A stretch of DNA of 25,636 nt from a virus. Position numbers and translations under genes: made by a program. Under the pieces are notes generated by a model. The model did no database searches and was not told where the DNA came from. It saw only the letters and a program-made list of their open reading frames with translations. The stretch is from positions 1 through 25,636 of the IMG/VR virus record IMGVR_UViG_3300034104_002424. One strand, 5' to 3'. Below, in pieces: positions 9,475-20,390 of the stretch (its first letter is position 1; each line of letters starts with the position of its first letter).

Positions 9475-12400
9475 ATGGCAGCTATATTTCAACTAAGAAG
9501 AGGAACATCAGATGTAATACTTGTAGATGGTGAATTGTATTTACATAATGGTAGTGGTTCTATTCAATTTGGTAGTGGTTCAAACAACTACACCTTACTA
9601 CCTTTAAATGCACCGGCATATGGTGATATTAATTTAAGTGGTAGCATATCCGCATCTGGAGATGTTAGAATTGGTGGAAACATTTATTTAGGAGATAATT
9701 TAGCAAATGATAGTGTAAATGTAAACTCACCATTTAGTGGGTCAATTATACCATCTGGTTCAAACACATTCGACTTAGGTAGTTCAACAACTGTTTATAG
9801 AAATATTTATTCAAACAGAGTATCGGCTTCATTTTTTACAGGTTCTTTGAATGGAACTGTTAATGGAATTGATGTTACAAATTTCTCAACATCAGTAGAT
9901 GGTAGATTAGATGTAATTGAAAGTAAATATGCAACAACTGGTTCAAATATTTTTGTAGGAAATCAAACTATTAGTGGTTCTTTAATCGTTAGTGGTTCAA
10001 ATATTCAATTTAGTGGTTCAAATATAGAATTTACAAGAGATTGGCCTGAGGTTGGTAGTGAATCTCATTTTTTGAGACTTGAACCATTTACATCATCAAC
10101 TGGTAGATACTATCAAGGATTAGGAATTGGTGTTGAACATTGGGATGATGGAACGGGTACATATGAACATTCATTATTGATTCATTCTTTTGATGATGAT
10201 ACTCTTCAAAACTATGGTGCAGAATTAAATGTTGGGCCATATAGAACTCATATGAGAGTTTACCCATCTGGTTCAAACGGCAGTTTATCAAATATATCGG
10301 TACAAGAATTATCAAATGGAAAAAGTCAAGCATTGGTATATGGTGATTATGTACACATTGGGGCATTTACAGGACAAGAAATTTTAATAGGTAATACTGG
10401 TTCATTGATTACAATTACTGGAAGTAATATGTTATTTGATACCCCATTAACATCTTCTCATCCAATAGTTGCAACATTATTTAGTGGTTCAATTAGTGGT
10501 ATTGGTAATGTAACCGAATTTAGTTCATCGATATCCGATAAATTTGTAACAATATCAAATGTTACAAGTTCATTTGATAGTAGATTAGACAGATTAGAAG
10601 AAAGCACTCAATCTTTAAACGATTATACACAATCTTTAAAAAGTGCAATAGATGTAACTGGCGGTGACACTAGAATTTTAGGAAACTTAATAGTTGATGG
10701 AACACAAACTTCATTAAATACAACAAATACATTTATTGAAGATAAGTCAATCACATTAGCAAGTGGTTCAACTAATTCAAGTATTGCAGATGGTGCTGGT
10801 TTTAACATTGCAGGTGCAAATGTTTCAATGAGTTGGGAAGATGGAAATCAAAGATTATATTTTAATACAAATTTAGGTATACAAGGTTCAATAAGTTCAT
10901 CTACAATAGTTGGTTTAAATGGAGTAAGTGTAAATGTATACTCTGCATCGGTTGATAGTAGATTAACTAATTCCGAAATTCTTTCTGCATCTATTTTAGG
11001 ACATATTTATGATATAAATTTAAAAACTGGTTCTTTTGAAACTAAGTTTACTACAATACAAAGTTTGACTGCATCTTATGATATTCATACTGCATCATTA
11101 AACATATATACACAAAGTGTTAATGGACATATTTTGGATTTGAATAGTTGGACTGCATCTCAAAATGAAAAAGATATTGTTATTTCAAATATAACTTCTT
11201 CTTATAATTCATTTACTGGTTCGGCAACTGCGAGTATAGTAGAATTATTTTGGACTGCATCAAATCACGAAGTTAGAATTGATAGTTTAGAAACTAAAGC
11301 AACTACAATTGAATCTTATACTGCATCAATTGATTCAAAATTTGTAAAAATTGAAAGTATAACGGCATCTTACAATAGTGTAACTGCATCATTTAATCAG
11401 TTTACTTCTTCAACCTATACAACTTTCAGTACATCAGTTGATTTGAGATTGGATGAATTGGAATATACCGCTTCAATTTTGACTCCAGAAGGACAAGCTG
11501 AAACATTTAATGCATATAATTCATTTACAGCATCTGCAAATAGTAGATTGAGTAATTTAGAAATTAAATCTGCAAGTGTAGATGTATCAATAACTTCATT
11601 AAATGCATTTACAACATCTCAAGAAAACTTAAATCTAACATTTGCAACTACTGGTTCAAATACATTTATAGGAACACAAACTATAAGTGGTTCTACATAT
11701 ATAACTGGTGATTTGATAGTTTTTGGTTCATCATCTTTACAAAATGTAACTGCATCTGCAGTTTCAATCGGAACAAATACGGTAATATTAAATAACGATA
11801 CTCCGTCTGTAAGATTTGGTGGAATTTCGGTAGCAGATAGTGGTTCAGGAGCAGGAGCAAGTGGTTCATTATTTTGGGATTCTGTAAATAATAACTGGAT
11901 TTATCAACATCCATCGGGTGGTGTTGAATCTGCAATGAGTGCAATATTAATTTCAGGACCATTAAATACGGGTTCTTTGGGTGATGAAGCACATATTACA
12001 CCGGGAAGAATAATGGTTGCAACCGGTGATGACCACATTGGTGATTCGAATATTTATCACAATGAAACGATTACTGCATTTGCAGGTAATGTAGAAGTAA
12101 CTGGTTCAACAACATTAGGAACTGCAAACATCACAACATTAAACGCTGGAAACGGAGTAGTATCGGGTTCATCACAAATAACATTATCATCTACAACTGG
12201 ATATTCTACATTTAGTTCGTCTTTAAATAATAGATTTACTGAAATAGAAAATTATACATCATCATTAAAAAGTGCATTATCTGTCAATGGAAATGATTTG
12301 GTGGTTGCTGGTAATTTAACTGTATTGGGTGATGCGGTAACTCTAAATGTGGGTAATTTATCAGTCGAAGATAAAACAATTACTTTAGCAAGTGGTTCAC

Positions 12401-13218
12401 CTGATTCAATTTCATCGGATGGTGCAGGTTTATATATAAGTGGTGCAGATGCAAGTATTTTATGGAACCATTCAAACACAAGATTAGATATTAATAAATC
12501 AATATATGTATCGGGTGATATAAATACATTAGGTAGTATAACAGGTTCAATTGCAGCAACAAATGGTGTAGTTTCTGGTTCATCACAAGTATCTTATGTA
12601 GGATTGAGTAATATACCATCAGGAATTATTTCATCATCTGCACAAATTGATGCATTATTTGATATTGATGGTTTGGTTAGTGGTTCATCTCAAATATCAT
12701 ATGTAGATTTATCTAACATACCTGCAGGAATTATTTCATCATCTGCACAAATTGATGCATTATTTAATATAGATGGGTTGGTATCCGGTTCATCTCAAAT
12801 TACTTTATCATCTACAACAGGTGGTTCTACAACTTCCGATGTTCAATTTGGTTCATTAGGAATTGGAACTGCTGCAAGTGGTGTAAGTGGTGAGATTAGA
12901 GCAACTGGTGATATCGTAGCATTCTATTCATCTGACGAAAGATTAAAAGAAAATATACAACCAATTCAAAATGCATTATCAAAAGTTGAATCAATTAGTG
13001 GTAATACATATGATTGGAAAGAAGGATTTGAAAAAATACATTCACATAAAGGAAATGATTTAGGAGTAATAGCACAAGAAGTTCAATCAGTATTACCTGA
13101 AGTAGTAACTGAGAGAGAAACTGGATATTTGGCAGTTGATTATGTGAAGTTGGTTCCTGTCTTAATTGAAGCGATAAAAGAATTATCTGCAAAAGTTAAG
13201 GAATTGGAAAATAAATAG
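9475..13218 (+). CDS. Giant tail fibre with C-terminal S74 chaperone domain
   Basis: This 1247-residue protein is the largest in the window. Residues 1-45 are an RRGT-type head (FQLRRGTSDVILVDGELYLH). Residues about 85-110 hold a DLGSSTTVYRNIY motif common in phage fibres. Residues 154-333 are cassette A, shared with the fibre at 1-3003. Two EDK-ITLASGS modules lie near residues 422 and 965; residues about 490-720 are coiled-coil shaft repeats; 725-858 is cassette B, shared with the 899-aa fibre; and 1033-1102 are two 35-residue tandem repeats. The C-terminus (1153-1247) is a Peptidase_S74 intramolecular chaperone: S1153-D-E-R-L-K1158, then YDWKEGF, LGVIAQEVQSVLPEVV, YLAVDYVKLVPVLIEAIKEL. In this family the chaperone aids trimer folding and is cut off just before the serine, with the Ser-Lys pair catalytic; both are present. 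Probably a main receptor-binding fibre. Confidence 0.88.
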   Translation: MAAIFQLRRGTSDVILVDGELYLHNGSGSIQFGSGSNNYTLLPLNAPAYGDINLSGSISASGDVRIGGNIYLGDNLANDSVNVNSPFSGSIIPSGSNTFDLGSSTTVYRNIYSNRVSASFFTGSLNGTVNGIDVTNFSTSVDGRLDVIESKYATTGSNIFVGNQTISGSLIVSGSNIQFSGSNIEFTRDWPEVGSESHFLRLEPFTSSTGRYYQGLGIGVEHWDDGTGTYEHSLLIHSFDDDTLQNYGAELNVGPYRTHMRVYPSGSNGSLSNISVQELSNGKSQALVYGDYVHIGAFTGQEILIGNTGSLITITGSNMLFDTPLTSSHPIVATLFSGSISGIGNVTEFSSSISDKFVTISNVTSSFDSRLDRLEESTQSLNDYTQSLKSAIDVTGGDTRILGNLIVDGTQTSLNTTNTFIEDKSITLASGSTNSSIADGAGFNIAGANVSMSWEDGNQRLYFNTNLGIQGSISSSTIVGLNGVSVNVYSASVDSRLTNSEILSASILGHIYDINLKTGSFETKFTTIQSLTASYDIHTASLNIYTQSVNGHILDLNSWTASQNEKDIVISNITSSYNSFTGSATASIVELFWTASNHEVRIDSLETKATTIESYTASIDSKFVKIESITASYNSVTASFNQFTSSTYTTFSTSVDLRLDELEYTASILTPEGQAETFNAYNSFTASANSRLSNLEIKSASVDVSITSLNAFTTSQENLNLTFATTGSNTFIGTQTISGSTYITGDLIVFGSSSLQNVTASAVSIGTNTVILNNDTPSVRFGGISVADSGSGAGASGSLFWDSVNNNWIYQHPSGGVESAMSAILISGPLNTGSLGDEAHITPGRIMVATGDDHIGDSNIYHNETITAFAGNVEVTGSTTLGTANITTLNAGNGVVSGSSQITLSSTTGYSTFSSSLNNRFTEIENYTSSLKSALSVNGNDLVVAGNLTVLGDAVTLNVGNLSVEDKTITLASGSPDSISSDGAGLYISGADASILWNHSNTRLDINKSIYVSGDINTLGSITGSIAATNGVVSGSSQVSYVGLSNIPSGIISSSAQIDALFDIDGLVSGSSQISYVDLSNIPAGIISSSAQIDALFNIDGLVSGSSQITLSSTTGGSTTSDVQFGSLGIGTAASGVSGEIRATGDIVAFYSSDERLKENIQPIQNALSKVESISGNTYDWKEGFEKIHSHKGNDLGVIAQEVQSVLPEVVTERETGYLAVDYVKLVPVLIEAIKELSAKVKELENK
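9934..10473 (+). repeat. Fibre knob cassette A, copy 2
   Basis: Aligns without any gap to 343-882, with a constant offset of 9591 bases over 180 codons. About four fifths of residues agree by eye, and stretches such as the one encoding GIGVEHWDDGTGTYEHS and ELNVGPYRTHMRVYPS are essentially unchanged. Confidence 0.85.
11647..12048 (+). repeat. Globular fibre cassette B, copy 2
   Basis: Second copy of the 134-codon cassette whose first copy is 6000-6401, aligned without gaps (offset 5647). It lies in the 1247-aa fibre directly after a coiled-coil region, the same architectural position as in the 899-aa fibre. Confidence 0.8.
12571..12780 (+). repeat. 105-bp tandem repeat, two copies plus a partial third
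   Basis: 12571-12675 and 12676-12780 each encode 35 residues of the pattern VSGSSQ-x-SYV-x-LSNIP, then x-GIISSSAQIDALF-x-IDGL. A third copy starts at 12781 with VSGSSQI and then changes to the linker that leads into the S74 domain. Confidence 0.8.
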
Positions 13219-13263: not shown

Positions 13264-15351
13264 ATGGCACTTAAATTTAGACGTGGGACAACCGCACAAA
13301 AATCAGGTTCGTTAGCATTCGGAGAACCATATGTGAACACCACATTGGGAACATTACAAATCGGACTTGAAAGTGGGGATGTAACTCTTTCATCAACAGG
13401 TACGGGTAGTAATTTAATAGTTGGTGGAATCTCGGGTTCTTCATTAGACATTACTGGAAACGCAAAAATTGATGGTAATTTATCATTGGGTGGACAACTT
13501 ACAATTGGTGACAATACATCTGATACTGTAAATGTAGTTGCATCTTTGAGTTCATCTCTTATCCCATCCGTGGATAATGCATTTGATTTGGGTTCTCAAA
13601 CTAAAATTTGGAGAGACCTTTATATTTCAACGGGTTCAATTAGAGTTGTTGCAGATGGTGCAATATTATCATCTATTACAACAAATGCGGATGGTTCTCA
13701 AACTTTCCCTAATGGTTTATACTCTCAAGCAAATATAACAATTGGTAGTGGTTCTTATGTTAATATAGGTAAATTCGAAATTGGTAGAAGAGGAGATACT
13801 CCTGATAATAATACTGTTTTGGGTATTGATGTAATGCCTGATTTAACAACTGGTGAATTTAATACTGGTATTGGTAGAGGTACTTTATATAATTTAACAA
13901 CAGGTACTAATAATATTTCAGTTGGTGACCAAGCTGGTTACACAATGACAAATGGTTCGGGAAACATTACAATTGGTGCATCCGCAGCATTTACTTTAGC
14001 AGACCCAGGTGGTATGAACGGCCAACCTGTATCAAATACATTCATAGGTAATACTGCAGGAACATATGTAAATAGTGGATTTTATACAACTGCAATTGGT
14101 GGTAATGCATTATTAGGTCAAAATGGTGTAACTGATAGATTTATTAAAAATACAGCAATTGGATATGGTGCAGGTAGTTATCTAACTGGTATCGCGACGA
14201 ATAACTTATATTTGGGTGCAAATGCAGGCCCTTCTTCATATACGAATGAAAGTTATAAATTTTATGTTTCAAATGGTGAAGTAGGTGAACAATCGTTTAT
14301 GTATGGTGATATGGCAAATGGTAGTAGAGCTTTGGATATCAATGCATCCACAACTATATCTGGTTCATTAAGAATAAAGAAAGATTTGATAGTGGAAGGT
14401 TCATCTTCTATTGAAAATATTAGTTCTTCAAATTTAGTAATTGGAACCGCTTATGTAAGTTTAAATACATCAACTCCAACATCTAGATATGCAGGATTAT
14501 TAATTTCTGATAGTGGTTCAGCTGGTGGTTCTGGTTCATTCTTATATGATGCTGTTCAAGATGAGTTCATTTTTGTACATAGAGGAAATGGTACAAATGT
14601 AACATCATCTCACTTTGTATTAGGACCTGAAACATATGATAGTTTGGGTAATGAAACTTATTTAACTAATGATAGATTGCCAAAAGGAACGGGTAAAGAA
14701 CATTTAGTTGATTCAAATATTACCGATACTGGTACATTAATTACTTTAGGTTCAAATACCGTTGTAAACGGAACATTGGTTGCAACCGGCACAACATTAG
14801 TTTCTGGTTCATCTCAAATAGACGCAACTGCAACTACAAACTGGTCAACTGGAATTAAAACACAATTAGATAGTAATACAGTAGTTTCGGGTTCATCACA
14901 AATTACTTTATCATCTACAACTGGTGGTTCTACGACTTCCGATGTAAGATTTGGTTCATTGGGAATTGGTATGGCAGCAAGTGGAACTGCTGGTAGAATT
15001 GACGCAAGTGGTGATATCGTTGCATACTCAACTTCAGATAGAAACTTTAAAGAAAACATTACTCCAATTCCAAACGCATTAGAAAAGATTTCTAAAATTA
15101 GTGGTAACACTTACGATTGGAAAGAAGATATGAAAGATTTCCACGGATTTGAAGGAAATGATGTCGGTGTAATTGCACAAGAAATTGAAGAAGTATTACC
15201 ACAATTGGTAACTACAAGAGAAACAGGATATAAAGCAGTTAAATACGACAAATTGGTTGCATTATTAATTGAAGGTATTAAAGAACAACAAACACAAATA
15301 CACAATTTAACTTTAGAAGTTGAAAATCTAAAGAAACAAAAAGGGTTATAA
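13264..15351 (+). CDS. Tail fibre with YadA-like head repeats and S74 chaperone
   Basis: This 695-residue protein starts with an RRGT head (LKFRRGTTAQKSGSLAFGE, VNTTLGTLQIG), the clearest Mtd_N-like start in the array. Residues about 100-120 hold LIPSVDNAFDLGSQTKIWRD, a common fibre motif. Residues about 183-335 contain repeated units NTVLGIDV, NTGIGRGTL, NISVGDQAG, NTFIGNTAG, TTAIGGNALLG, NTAIGYGAGSY and NLYLGANAG, the pattern of the YadA/Hep_Hag left-handed beta-roll of trimeric adhesins. A diverged cassette B follows (about 370-490). The C-terminus (591-695) is an S74 chaperone: S591-D-R-N-F-K596, YDWKEDM, VGVIAQEIEEVLPQLV, VKYDKLVALLIEGIKE, then a coiled-coil tail. By family knowledge it trimerises, folds, then cuts itself before S591. 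The next gene, a glycosyltransferase, starts 3 nt after the stop. Confidence 0.88.
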   Translation: MALKFRRGTTAQKSGSLAFGEPYVNTTLGTLQIGLESGDVTLSSTGTGSNLIVGGISGSSLDITGNAKIDGNLSLGGQLTIGDNTSDTVNVVASLSSSLIPSVDNAFDLGSQTKIWRDLYISTGSIRVVADGAILSSITTNADGSQTFPNGLYSQANITIGSGSYVNIGKFEIGRRGDTPDNNTVLGIDVMPDLTTGEFNTGIGRGTLYNLTTGTNNISVGDQAGYTMTNGSGNITIGASAAFTLADPGGMNGQPVSNTFIGNTAGTYVNSGFYTTAIGGNALLGQNGVTDRFIKNTAIGYGAGSYLTGIATNNLYLGANAGPSSYTNESYKFYVSNGEVGEQSFMYGDMANGSRALDINASTTISGSLRIKKDLIVEGSSSIENISSSNLVIGTAYVSLNTSTPTSRYAGLLISDSGSAGGSGSFLYDAVQDEFIFVHRGNGTNVTSSHFVLGPETYDSLGNETYLTNDRLPKGTGKEHLVDSNITDTGTLITLGSNTVVNGTLVATGTTLVSGSSQIDATATTNWSTGIKTQLDSNTVVSGSSQITLSSTTGGSTTSDVRFGSLGIGMAASGTAGRIDASGDIVAYSTSDRNFKENITPIPNALEKISKISGNTYDWKEDMKDFHGFEGNDVGVIAQEIEEVLPQLVTTRETGYKAVKYDKLVALLIEGIKEQQTQIHNLTLEVENLKKQKGL

Positions 15352-15354
15352 TTA

Positions 15355-16359
15355 ATGTATGACATTTATTACACCACCGCTGGAGGACCTTGGTTTAACA
15401 GCGGTGCTGATATATGGGTAACTAATTGGATAAAGAAAGTGGCACCTAATTTAGAAGTTAAGCCACTTCTTTTATTTCATAGAAAGAGGCCAAACAATTA
15501 CGAAGAATTTCCAATTGATATAGACCATGTTTGGGAAACGGATGAATTAAAAATAGATGAGTTATTAAAGGGTGCAAGAAAGATTCACATATTACATGGT
15601 CATTACACTCCAACAACTGCAATATACAATAATATAGATAAAATTGATTCAATTGTATTTCATAATTTGACTAAAGTATCATTGGTTGGTCAAATGAATA
15701 AAGATGAATATTTACATTGGTATGGTAATTGGGAATGGGAAAGTGAGTTAATAAACAAAGTTAAAAATAAAATTTGGATAGGATTGTATAATTTTCCATA
15801 TAAAACGGACAATTTGCATAATATTCCAAATTATTATGAATTTACAGAAGAAAAAGAATTGTCTAAATCTACCAAGGTAGGATTTGCAGCAAGAGTTGAA
15901 GGTAGAAAAAATGTGGAATATATAGATAACATCGATTCGGTATTGTTTACAAATTCAGAAACATTAGACAAATATTATATAAAAAAATATGGATACAAAT
16001 TTCAAAAAAGTAGAATTTATAAATTTAAACACAAATATAAAGAAAACTTTTACAAACTTGATTGGGGAATATCTCACTCTTGCTTTGAATATGAACCATT
16101 TGGATATGGAATATTTGAAGCAGTCGATTGGGGTAAATTACCAATATTACATGAAAACTGGCATGTTCCACTTGATTACAAATACAAGGCAAAAAGTAAA
16201 GAAACATTTGATAAAACCTATCAAACCATTTGTGAAGATAGTTGGGAAACGAAGTATAATGAATTTGAAAAACTTAAAAGTTGGATGAAACAACATTTTT
16301 CGGACAAAGAAAGTTGGAAACAAAAACTTTTAGATATTTATAACGAGAATAATATATAA
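15355..16359 (+). CDS. GT-B (GT4-like) glycosyltransferase
   Basis: This 334-residue protein is compositionally unlike its Ser/Thr-rich neighbours: it is Lys-, Tyr- and Trp-rich and globular. The N-terminal half has GGPWFNSGADIWV and HILHGHYTPTT, resembling the acceptor half of GT-B enzymes. The C-terminal half has VGFAARVEGRKN, with R180 and K185 at the positions GT4 enzymes use to hold the nucleotide-sugar phosphates, and YEPFGYGIFEAVDWGKLPIL, in which E247 and E255 form the E-x7-E motif of that superfamily. It likely transfers a sugar from a nucleotide-activated donor; donor and acceptor cannot be told. Its start 3 nt after an S74 fibre stop suggests co-expression, so the acceptor may be a fibre protein, though host glycan modification is possible. 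It has no membrane segment. Slightly short for GT4 but no truncation is apparent. Confidence 0.72.
   Translation: MYDIYYTTAGGPWFNSGADIWVTNWIKKVAPNLEVKPLLLFHRKRPNNYEEFPIDIDHVWETDELKIDELLKGARKIHILHGHYTPTTAIYNNIDKIDSIVFHNLTKVSLVGQMNKDEYLHWYGNWEWESELINKVKNKIWIGLYNFPYKTDNLHNIPNYYEFTEEKELSKSTKVGFAARVEGRKNVEYIDNIDSVLFTNSETLDKYYIKKYGYKFQKSRIYKFKHKYKENFYKLDWGISHSCFEYEPFGYGIFEAVDWGKLPILHENWHVPLDYKYKAKSKETFDKTYQTICEDSWETKYNEFEKLKSWMKQHFSDKESWKQKLLDIYNENNI
16334..16342 (+). promoter_or_regulatory. ATATTTATA motif inside the end of the glycosyltransferase gene
   Basis: Exact 9-mer within the last codons of the glycosyltransferase (encoding part of LDIYNENN), 20 nt before the ATG at 16363. It is the only exact copy lying in coding sequence, which supports selection for its position relative to the following start. 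Confidence 0.45.
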
Positions 16360-16362
16360 AAT

Positions 16363-18078
16363 ATGCCAAGAACAAATTTATCATTAGGAAATTTATATAG
16401 AGCCGTAAGTGGTTCTGCAAGACCAGGTGCAGTTTCAATGGGTGCATTAAGTGGAAATAGTAACAATAGTTCATTTATTGACTTTGCAACAGATGCAGTT
16501 ACGGTTACACCGCCTACATTTACATATATAGTAGAATCTACAACTGAGAATGCACAATTTACATTCAGTTCAACGGGTTCTTTGTTTTATTCAAAAGTTC
16601 AACAACAATTGAATAACTATACTTGTTCTTTTAATAACTCAAACTTTGCAACTGGTTCAAAAACATTTGGAACAGGTCCTTCGGTTTTCCCAATCACTCC
16701 TGCAGCAATTAACGCATCTAACTATTCTGAAGCTTCTGCAGTTTTGACAATGAAATACGAAGATGGATATAATATTAATGCAACTAACTATAATACAATT
16801 TCTACAAAGACATTATATGCAGTAGATGTTTACAATACAATCAACCAACCTGATTTCTGTTTATTATTTGGAACTAAAATTCAATTAGCAGACGGAACAG
16901 AAATAAATGTTGAAGATTTGAATATTGGTGACGAAATTAAATCTTGGGTTCCTGCAGGATTACCTGATGAAAATCAAGACCCAGAAAGTGACCAAGTTGA
17001 TTGGAGATTTCACTATTCAGATACTTTAGAAGGTAATGCACAAAATGTAACAGTAAGTGACATTACATTTAACTTTGCAGAAGGATATTTTTCTTTAAAT
17101 GATGGTTTAATTAATGCAACCGAAACTCACCCATTATATGTTTGGGATAATGAGATTGGTAAATATAAGTTTAAAAATGTAGGTGATATATTGCCTGGAG
17201 ACAAACTTGTAATGCAAGACGAAACTGAAATTGAAGTTACTAATATTGAAATTGTAACGGCTGATGTAGAAATCGTAACTGTGAATGTGGAAAATGCCGA
17301 TGTGTATATTTCAAATGGTTTAATTTCACACAACAAAGGAACAACAACACAACCATATATTCCATCTTCTGGATTGAGAATGTATTTAGACCCCTCTAAG
17401 GCATCATCAACAAACGGAACAGTAACAACTGACTGGTTAGACCTTTCTGGTTATAATACCGGTGTAAGACCCGCAGGTGTCTCAAATGCGGCTGGTATCA
17501 CTGGTGGTAATCCAGGATATAATAATGGAGCAACTAGAAAAGACAAATACTGGACAGGAAATGGAACAAACCAATTCTGGTATAAAGATACTACATCAAA
17601 CATCAATGCTGGTTTAACACAATTTAATACTAATACTGGTACTATACATGTATGGGTAAGACCTACAACCACATTAGGTGTTGCATCTAGACATATTTTT
17701 GACTATGCAGGATTTTATGGTTTGGCAGTTGAATCTACTGATAACTCTACATTAAATAGAATTCAATTTAGAGCTAGCACATTAGGAAATAGTGGACAAT
17801 TTACAACATCATTGTCATCAAATGTTTGGTATATGATTTCAGTAGCATTCCAACCAAGTGGAACTTGTACAGTTTATGTTGATAAATCATCAATAGGAAC
17901 TTATACATCTTCTGCATTTACTGCACCATCATCTACTAACTTCTTAACAATTGGAGCTAATAGTGCAAGAACAACATTTTGGAATGGGCAAATAGGACCA
18001 GTATTGTTCTATAATACATTACAAAACTCAACTGCGGTAGGACAAGTATATGATTATTTCTCTCCAACATATAAGTAA
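16363..18078 (+). CDS. Virion N-domain, Hint autoprocessing domain and LamG lectin fusion
   Basis: This 571-residue protein has three parts. Residues 1-165 begin SLGNLYRAVSGSARPGAVSM, a structural-protein-like start, followed by a small beta-rich domain. Residues 166-324 are a Hint domain: C166-LLFGTKIQLADGTEI with VEDLNIGDEI, T253-E-T-H256 (block B TxxH), and VNVENADVYISNGLISH323-N324 (blocks F and G). Residues about 335-571 are a LamG domain (SGLRMYLDPSK, WLDLSGYNTG, GTIHVWVRP, WNGQIGPVLFYN). Hint domains rearrange the bond at Cys1 and cyclise the final Asn. Here the next residue is K325, not Cys/Ser/Thr, so ordinary splicing is not expected, and bacterial-intein-like cleavage is more likely. 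No homing endonuclease fits in 159 residues. Cleavage would release a 247-residue lectin, close in size to the free-standing LamG gene at 3003. Domain calls are confident; the processing outcome is inference. Confidence 0.85.
   Translation: MPRTNLSLGNLYRAVSGSARPGAVSMGALSGNSNNSSFIDFATDAVTVTPPTFTYIVESTTENAQFTFSSTGSLFYSKVQQQLNNYTCSFNNSNFATGSKTFGTGPSVFPITPAAINASNYSEASAVLTMKYEDGYNINATNYNTISTKTLYAVDVYNTINQPDFCLLFGTKIQLADGTEINVEDLNIGDEIKSWVPAGLPDENQDPESDQVDWRFHYSDTLEGNAQNVTVSDITFNFAEGYFSLNDGLINATETHPLYVWDNEIGKYKFKNVGDILPGDKLVMQDETEIEVTNIEIVTADVEIVTVNVENADVYISNGLISHNKGTTTQPYIPSSGLRMYLDPSKASSTNGTVTTDWLDLSGYNTGVRPAGVSNAAGITGGNPGYNNGATRKDKYWTGNGTNQFWYKDTTSNINAGLTQFNTNTGTIHVWVRPTTTLGVASRHIFDYAGFYGLAVESTDNSTLNRIQFRASTLGNSGQFTTSLSSNVWYMISVAFQPSGTCTVYVDKSSIGTYTSSAFTAPSSTNFLTIGANSARTTFWNGQIGPVLFYNTLQNSTAVGQVYDYFSPTYK
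16858..17334 (+). other. Hint (intein-like) domain coding segment
   Basis: Encodes C166 to N324 of the protein above. The 159-residue length fits a minimal splicing/cleavage domain with no endonuclease. Key residues seen are C166, T253, H256, H323 and N324; the +1 residue is lysine. Confidence 0.85.
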
Positions 18079-18146: not shown

Positions 18147-20390
18147 ATGGCAGAAAAAATTGTATCACCAGGCGTATTCACAAGAGAAAACGACCTTTCA
18201 TTTTTACAACAAGGTGTAGCAGAAATAGGTGCAGCATTCATTGGCCCTTTCAAAGAAGGCCCATTAGTTCCAACAATCGTTAATTCACAAGCTGAGTTTG
18301 AAACTCTTTTTGGCAATGTAGATGGAACATATTATACAGAATTAGCTGTTCAAAATTATTTAAGAGAAGCAGGAACTGCAACTATTTGTAGAGTAGGTGG
18401 TGTTGGTGGATATACCGAAACAGCTCCTTTATTATTAACAGTAGCTTCAGGATCAGCAACTGCATCGGTTGGTATTTTATTCAATACTACATCTGGTTCA
18501 AATGCAGGTTTTGCAGGAACAACTGTAGCACCAAACGGATTTGGTGATTTCTTATTATCGGGTTCAAATACTGGTTTATTATCTGCATCTTTGGATTCAC
18601 AAGATACAAATGATATCGAAGCTGTATTTGGAACATCTGCATATGGTAATAAAAAACCTTATGTATATGGTTTCTTCAAAAATCATAGTGTTCCATTTGA
18701 TGCAAACACAACTGCATCTGTAAATGTTTTGGGTGGCCAAGAATTTATGGGTAGAGGTGATGGAGATGCATGTGAGGCTTTAACACCAATGATTCAATCT
18801 CAATTGATTAGTGGACAAAGATTTAACTTATTCCAATTTGAAACATTAGGTGCTGGAAACAGAGCAAACACTAAAATTAAAATTGGTATTACAAATATTA
18901 AAGCAGCTGGTTCAATAAACGGAACAGATTACGGAACATTTACAGTTGTAGTAAGAGAATTTGACGATACTAATAAGAAAAAAGTAGTAGTAGAAACTTT
19001 CTCTAATGTAAACTTAGACCCCAATTCTCCTAACTATATTAGTAGAGTAATCGGTGATAGAAAATTATCAATCGATGCACAAGGTAAAGTAACTGAAACT
19101 GGTGATTGGGTAAACAATTCAAAATATATTAGAATTGTAAACTTAAACGAAAACTCTCCAGTTCAAGCAGTTCCATTCGGACATGCAGCTTATCAATTAC
19201 CAATATCTGCATCAACTCAATTATCTTCTCAAATACCTGCAGTAACTTTCGTAAGTTCTTCTGCAACAGTATATGGTGGTATTGATTTAGATGGTAACAC
19301 AGATAACTCAATCTATTTAAGACCAATTCCAGTAGGTGCAACATCAGGTGTTAATGCAGCATTTGGTTTAGATGCATCAAATGGTGGTTCATTAACAGTT
19401 GGTTCTTCTGAAGCTCAATTCGTTGTAGCATTCCAAGAAGGTTTTGATGGTATGAATCCATCAACTCCAATCTACAAAGGAGCTGACATAATTAATACAA
19501 ACTCACAAGGTTTTGATTTATCAACATCTGCAGCAAGTGGTTCAGTAGCTTATGGTAAATTAATATCTGCATTATCAAACGCTGATGAATTTGATATCAA
19601 TATGATTGTTACTCCAGGTGTTGTAAGAAGATTACACCCTTCAGTAGTAACTGATGTTTTGGATATGGTAGAAGAAAGAAATGATTGTTTCTATATTATG
19701 GATTCAACTTCTCAAAATGATTCTATTACACAAGTAACAACTCAATCTGACGCAGTTGATTCAAATATGGCAGCAACTTACTATCCTTGGGTTAAGACAA
19801 TTGATATCAACACTAATAAGTTGATTTCAGTTCCACCTTCAGTATTATTACCTGGTGTATTTGCAGCAAACGATAGAGTAGCAGCTGAATGGTTCGCACC
19901 AGCAGGTTTGAATAGAGGTGGTTTAACAGGAGCAGTTAGTGTATTGAATAGATTAACTCAATCTGAAAAAGATACATTATACGAAGCAAAAGTTAACCCA
20001 ATCGTTCAATTCCCAGGTCAAGGTATCGTAGTATTTGGTCAAAAGACTTTACAAGATAAACCATCAGCATTAGATAGAATCAATGTAAGAAGATTATTGT
20101 TAACTGTTAGAAAATACATCGCATCTACTTCAAGATTCTTAGTATTCGAACAAAATAGTTCTACAACAAGAAACACATTCTTAAACATTGTTAACCCTTA
20201 TTTAGAATCTATCCAACAAAGACAAGGTTTATACGCTTTCAGAGTAGTAATGGATGAAACAAACAATACTGCTGATGTAATTGATAGAAACATATTAAAA
20301 GGAGCTATCTACTTACAACCAACTAAGACTGCTGAATTCATTCAAATTGATTTCAACATCTTACCAACTGGAGCAAGTTTTAACGGATAA
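18147..20390 (+). CDS. gp18: Contractile tail sheath protein (gp18-like)
   Basis: This 747-residue protein matches the T4-type tail sheath family, slightly longer than T4 gp18 (about 660 residues). The N-terminus has IVSPGVFTRENDLS and GAAFIGPFKEGPLVPTIVNS, the usual sheath opening. The C-terminal domain has KTLQDKPSALDRINVRRLLL (about residues 633-652), TVRKYIASTSRFLVFEQN, IVNPYLESIQQRQGLYAFRV, and ends in ILKGAIYLQPTKTAEFIQID, the highly conserved handshake region of sheath subunits. It polymerises around the tail tube in the host cytoplasm and contracts on infection to drive the tube through the envelope. The variable middle (about residues 100-450) carries the family's surface insertions. 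The tube gene follows at 20438, the standard sheath-tube order. Codon use is more regular than in the fibres, consistent with high expression. Confidence 0.95.
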   Translation: MAEKIVSPGVFTRENDLSFLQQGVAEIGAAFIGPFKEGPLVPTIVNSQAEFETLFGNVDGTYYTELAVQNYLREAGTATICRVGGVGGYTETAPLLLTVASGSATASVGILFNTTSGSNAGFAGTTVAPNGFGDFLLSGSNTGLLSASLDSQDTNDIEAVFGTSAYGNKKPYVYGFFKNHSVPFDANTTASVNVLGGQEFMGRGDGDACEALTPMIQSQLISGQRFNLFQFETLGAGNRANTKIKIGITNIKAAGSINGTDYGTFTVVVREFDDTNKKKVVVETFSNVNLDPNSPNYISRVIGDRKLSIDAQGKVTETGDWVNNSKYIRIVNLNENSPVQAVPFGHAAYQLPISASTQLSSQIPAVTFVSSSATVYGGIDLDGNTDNSIYLRPIPVGATSGVNAAFGLDASNGGSLTVGSSEAQFVVAFQEGFDGMNPSTPIYKGADIINTNSQGFDLSTSAASGSVAYGKLISALSNADEFDINMIVTPGVVRRLHPSVVTDVLDMVEERNDCFYIMDSTSQNDSITQVTTQSDAVDSNMAATYYPWVKTIDINTNKLISVPPSVLLPGVFAANDRVAAEWFAPAGLNRGGLTGAVSVLNRLTQSEKDTLYEAKVNPIVQFPGQGIVVFGQKTLQDKPSALDRINVRRLLLTVRKYIASTSRFLVFEQNSSTTRNTFLNIVNPYLESIQQRQGLYAFRVVMDETNNTADVIDRNILKGAIYLQPTKTAEFIQIDFNILPTGASFNG

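Follow-up and report, generated by a model that had tools for sequence, protein, structure and literature searches.

Introduction

The role of bacterial intein-like (BIL) domains is poorly understood. Type-A BILs, such as 2lwy from C. thermocellum and BIL2 of Tetrahymena BUBL1 (6y75, 6tmm), have the Hint fold, a cysteine at the first position (Cys1) and a His-Asn end, carry neither Cys/Ser/Thr at +1 nor an endonuclease, and lie within hypervariable proteins, where the residues flanking them vary. Without the +1 nucleophile these domains form the thioester and cyclise the asparagine, which results mostly in cleavage (PMC4031507, PMC7664689); ligation is also possible, when a freed amine attacks the thioester by aminolysis (PMC4031507, PMC7664689). 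For BIL2 a lysine isopeptide bond has been reported, switched on by zinc (PMC8616854), and in Hedgehog and BIL2 there is precedent for a nucleophile attacking from outside (PMC8616854, PMC7664689). Hint domains of phage tail proteins are already annotated, as 'intein domain' or 'Hint domain containing protein'; the literature searched, in which few subscription journals were represented, contained no paper devoted to Hints of phage adhesins.

The domain described here has in common with type-A BILs the Hint fold, Cys1, the His-Asn end and the absence of both a +1 Cys/Ser/Thr and an endonuclease. Unlike them, it lies in a phage lectin protein, its +1 residue is always lysine and its block F histidine is replaced by aspartate. 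Its immediate flanks are invariant or nearly so, but the lectin module is exchanged. With class 1 inteins it shares the fold and catalytic blocks A, B and G, but it differs from these in having no +1 nucleophile, no endonuclease and, among the matches listed, no intein-free alleles. What is new is the combination of a BIL-like Hint with a constant anchor before it, a swappable lectin behind it and a lysine that never varies at +1.

Results

Architecture of the protein

The window, that is, the whole stretch of 25,636 nucleotides analysed (virus record IMGVR_UViG_3300034104_002424), contains at 16363-18078 (+) an open reading frame of 571 aa, whose parts are given in Table 1. An earlier note, made from the letters alone, had placed a Hint between an N-domain and a LamG lectin and had picked out C166, TETH, HN and K325; reading of the frame, profile, fold and the Pfam LamG match all bear this out. 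The C-terminal domain passes the curated cut-off of Laminin_G_3 (PF13385; residues 410-553, E 2.4e-13, 50.9 bits vs 27.6) and is ordinary save for its swapping between phages. Residues 1-165 gave no Pfam or PHROG family match and no convincing match to a solved structure, so that the label 'virion-type' given to the N-domain is supported only by the tail-operon position; the protein is a putative part of the virion. A scan of bacterial genomes for clues to the host found no relative.

Table 1. Features of the Hint-lectin protein and its flanking genes (window positions)
Feature	Position	Strand	Evidence or count
Glycosyltransferase-like gene, 334 aa, 3 bases upstream of the ORF	15355..16359	+	
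N-domain (N-extein), residues 1-165	16363..16857	+	
Hint domain, C166 to N324, 159 aa, without homing endonuclease	16858..17334	+	profile, fold, conservation
C166, expected nucleophile of the N-S acyl shift	16858..16860	+	131/131
Block B T253-x-T255-H256 (TETH 253-256)	17119..17130	+	130/130
D313, aligned at the block F His position of BILs/inteins	17299..17301	+	invariant in the window family
H323-N324, C-terminal His-Asn	17329..17334	+	126/126
K325, +1 lysine	17335..17337	+	126/126, invariant
Linker KGTTTQPYIPSSGLRMY..., residues 325-409	17335..17589	+	
LamG/ConA-like lectin (residues 410-553), swapped among phages	17590..18021	+	
Tail sheath (context)	18147..20390	+	downstream in 366/366 testable loci

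Assignment of the middle domain

Against Pfam and NCBIfam the window sequence alone left the Hint below every cut-off (Hint_2 17.5 bits vs 28.4), with a weak intein-model match in NCBIfam over residues 165-193 (E=0.002, single sequence); PT-HINT and Intein_splicing matched only other phage Hints in the compared set. A profile built from eight phage Hints of diverse origin (those of the window, one relative, and Erwinia, Yersinia, NCTB, Alcaligenes and LR756508 phages) found 2lwy at 1.2e-11 and 6tmm at 2.3e-11, with inteins next. We regard the missed curated cut-off as a matter of detection threshold rather than as a biological feature. An AlphaFold model of the Hint alone, built with 57 relatives (pLDDT 84, pTM 0.82), had 6y75 as its top Foldseek match (E=2e-10, prob 1.00, TM 0.79 on target); the top ranks were taken by 6y75/6tmm and 2lwy (E 2e-10 to 5e-9, TM 0.73-0.80 on target), and inteins and Hedgehog came after. 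The model of the whole protein was poor (pLDDT 54) and gave the same top matches, and the viral fold matches were headed by phage Hint proteins, some of them annotated as Hint domain proteins. Botulinum receptor-binding domains appeared in a first Foldseek list; a toxin reading was rejected, the match being to a jelly-roll, from a low-confidence model that also covered LamG. On profile and fold, C166-N324 is a genuine Hint.

Within the window family Cys1, TxxH and His-Asn are present, the +1 nucleophile is lacking as in type-A BILs, and the block F histidine is absent, its position being occupied by Asp in all family sequences and in 7/8 of the diverse phage Hints. As read from the alignments, the type-A BIL toolkit is complete apart from this histidine, which we treat as a variable, non-defining position; hence we call the domain BIL-like and not BIL.

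Conservation of the catalytic residues and junctions

Scans of aquatic viral contigs yielded at least some 390 overlapping loci, several contigs being present in more than one locus. In a full-length alignment of 102 distinct proteins, whose Hints are as little as 57% identical to that of the window, C166, T253, T255, H256, H323, N324 and K325 are unchanged. An HMM-based census that required no motif collected 131 distinct Hint sequences, and Cys1, TxTH, His-Asn and Lys+1 were kept in all that could be scored (counts in Table 1), the remainder being gaps or truncated ends. The earlier note had named loss of the Cys, TxxH and HN residues among homologues as grounds for refutation; they are kept in every homologue examined. 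Only 36 of the 161 columns are invariant in the 131 Hints and all six catalytic columns are among them, which by chance would occur with a probability of ~9e-5, so the conservation goes far beyond chance; part of it is owed to shared ancestry, since all 131 belong to a single group of large aquatic phages in which synteny is fixed. With a dN/dS of ~0.14 the Hint is, at the level of its coding sequence, under purifying selection.

Conservation is highest at the junctions, reaching 0.991 over residues 154-165 and 0.927 over 325-334, against ~0.78 in the N-domain (residues 1-153), the Hint interior and the linker, and 83% in LamG. Both junctions, being conserved above their surroundings, are under special constraint. 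In three loci HNKIGG stands in place of HNKG, with the lysine kept. The absence of Cys, Ser or Thr at +1, on which the earlier note had relied, is confirmed by Lys in every scored sequence. The conclusion it had drawn, that cleavage without splicing is to be expected, goes too far: ligation is open to type-A BILs that have no +1 nucleophile, and BIL2 is reported to make a lysine isopeptide bond. Such a restriction is not readable from sequence, and the invariant +1 residue is itself an amine.

Exchange of the lectin

Over 5050 pairs, identity in the N-domain and Hint is uncorrelated with identity in LamG (r=0.08). Loci L118 and L172 agree at 92% over N-domain and Hint and at 34% over LamG, whereas L021 and L095 agree at 61% and 98%, respectively. 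In L118/L172, the pair of largest contrast, identity drops at residues 390-420, at the linker or lectin edge and not at N324/K325. Clustering the C-terminal parts of 91 full-length proteins at 60% identity gives five groups, every one starting with Lys. By these comparisons the N-Hint unit stays constant and the lectin behind it is exchangeable, an arrangement to be expected in receptor binding, and we infer such a function.

Synteny and neighbouring genes

In each of the loci where this could be tested (298/298), the upstream neighbour is the glycosyltransferase-like gene. Its product in the window gave no convincing Pfam, PHROG or PDB match; an EX7E motif, typical of GT-B glycosyltransferases, is present in 117/118 relatives. 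A relative with 37% identity adjoins a virion-type protein with an HNKH* Hint in phage LR756508, where the second Glu is Gln. The enzyme might glycosylate the adhesin. Among named phages, the sheaths closest to that of the window belong to Microcystis phage Mel-JY01 (48%), LR756508 (43%) and Flavobacterium phage immuto (43%). In the annotated lists for the sheath region of Mel-JY01 and immuto no gene is named as Hint, and the whole Mel-JY01 genome gave no match to a Hint profile. The window also encodes, at 9475-13218 and 13264-15351, two tail-fibre proteins with C-terminal S74 endosialidase chaperone domains. Such a domain is a known self-cleaving module, so that, with the Hint-lectin protein, three products of this tail cluster may process themselves.

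For a mobile intein, empty sites would be expected. An N-terminal pattern scan found no Hint-less orthologue among the 126 distinct N-domain ORFs of the matches listed. Those without HNK are all cut by a contig end, except that of L231, where an in-frame TGA at ~9304 stands just ahead of the His-Asn motif in an otherwise open frame, through mutation or assembly error. A Hint that has no endonuclease and was not found as a mobile insertion fits domestication.

Hint domains of other phages

In Erwinia, Dickeya and Yersinia jumbo phages, a virion structural protein (phrog_38766) has a related Hint at its C-terminus, with ~10 residues past HN; this family was matched by two relatives of the window Hint, those in L175 (5e-7) and in LR756508 (2e-10). 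The tail cluster of NCTB, with its 'intein domain' tail proteins, contains three Hints; NCTB gp135 ends in HNKVD*, and one protein of LR756508 ends in HNKH*. Like the window Hint, the phrog_38766 and NCTB Hints belong to tail-cluster proteins and have Asp in block F; unlike it, they end the protein, with a short tail (HNT/HNV/HNA...) and no lectin, and their identity to it is ~25%. The +1 residue is Lys in ~5/14 phage Hints compared, and Ala, Thr, Val, Met, Phe, Leu or Cys in the others. Lysine at +1 is thus, as far as the alignments go, a feature of the window family that recurs elsewhere and is not universal. The portal-like Hints of LR756508 look like ordinary inteins; a scan with the LR756508 Hint protein as query returned no relatives.

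A second protein in the same phage group, of 735-765 aa, has three tandem Hints (L419:124-2388, L416:142-2349, L418:1039-3336; contigs of 245, 145 and 202 kb), for which Pfam Hint families are over cut-off. In L419 the first Hint is without Cys1 and ends in VTHN flush against Cys1 of the second, the last ends in HNK*, and a 2OG-Fe(II) oxygenase-like gene follows. In L416 and L418 the last Hint resembles Vint and has no HN end.

Discussion

Proposed mechanism

We propose that the protein is the precursor of a phage adhesin with a domesticated type-A BIL-like Hint that, judging from conservation and from the modelled fold, is quite probably catalytically active. After folding, C166 would take over the F165-C166 bond as a thioester, assisted by T253-x-T255-H256. 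N324 would cyclise with the help of H323, breaking the N324-K325 bond, and the Hint would be freed from a 165-residue N-domain and a 247-residue lectin starting at Lys325. The thioester would then be hydrolysed, giving cleavage, the usual main BIL outcome, or be taken by an amine, the most evident candidate being Lys325, which is invariant. The lectin is thus probably cut loose or re-joined after synthesis, and we consider it likely that processing is active and consists mostly of cleavage. Hint chemistry is normally spontaneous after folding, and the suggestion in the earlier note that receptor contact triggers processing found no support. That the chemistry occurs, that it is spontaneous and which product is final are inferences.

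An active BIL-like Hint is favoured by fold and profile, which point first to BIL domains, by the invariant catalytic set and conserved junctions, and by the finding of no Hint-less orthologues among the matches listed. Against it stand the aspartate in place of the block F histidine, which could slow Asn cyclisation, and the failure of the window sequence alone to pass any curated Hint cut-off. These same two points are what speaks for an inactive Hint serving as a structural spacer, which we nevertheless think improbable, as the best-conserved parts are the catalytic residues and the junctions while the interior of the domain diverges; the invariant catalytic set disfavours an inactive relic. 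An ordinary mobile intein, one that splices itself out, would have the same fold and would likewise be inserted within a host protein, but the +1 residue is never Cys/Ser/Thr, there is no endonuclease, no counterpart occupies a conserved enzyme site, and more than 100 distinct N-domain ORFs gave no intein-free allele among the matches listed. On the missing nucleophile and the absence of such an allele from the matches listed, this reading was rejected as very improbable.

The active BIL-like Hint could also release its thioester otherwise than to water. As a sub-case, the amine of Lys325 would attack the C166 thioester, through its alpha-amine after Asn cyclisation or its epsilon-amine before, joining the N-domain to the lectin, possibly by an isopeptide, while the Hint leaves. 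The lysine is invariant in all 126 sequences, HN-Lys recurs in distant phage Hints (HNKH* of LR756508, HNKVD* of NCTB gp135, two of the tandem Hints), type-A BILs ligate by aminolysis (PMC4031507) and BIL2 makes a lysine isopeptide (PMC8616854). On the other side, Lys stands at +1 in a minority of the phage Hints compared, residues 325-334 are conserved as a whole stretch and not for Lys alone, BILs mainly give cleavage, and the +1 residue in the solved chain of BIL2 is Met, so that its isopeptide lysine lies elsewhere. Moreover, were the product an ordinary fusion, Hint-less alleles should arise. We hold this ligation to be rather unlikely. Alternatively, the 165-residue N-domain would pass from the thioester to a different protein of the virion, through a lysine or another amine there, the lectin being released or held non-covalently and the Hint acting as an ATP-free attachment device. 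The external-nucleophile precedents of Hedgehog and BIL2 (PMC8616854, PMC7664689) are in keeping with this, and the Hint at the tail-protein C-terminus in Erwinia/Yersinia jumbo phages, with its short extension past HN, suits transfer over splicing; no partner protein was identified, and we consider such a transfer distinctly unlikely.

Implications

A BIL-like Hint fixed in a large environmental phage group, beside the tail sheath, offers a concrete system for the study of type-A BIL chemistry in vivo. It is conceivable, if rather unlikely, that the fixed +1 lysine and the BIL-type Hint together join an exchangeable lectin to a constant anchor by a lysine, possibly isopeptide, bond. If the Lys+1 ligation is real it would provide a new ligation tool, and in the phage the joining of anchor and lectin would be the work of a natural amine-directed ligase in virion assembly, acting without ATP or a partner enzyme.
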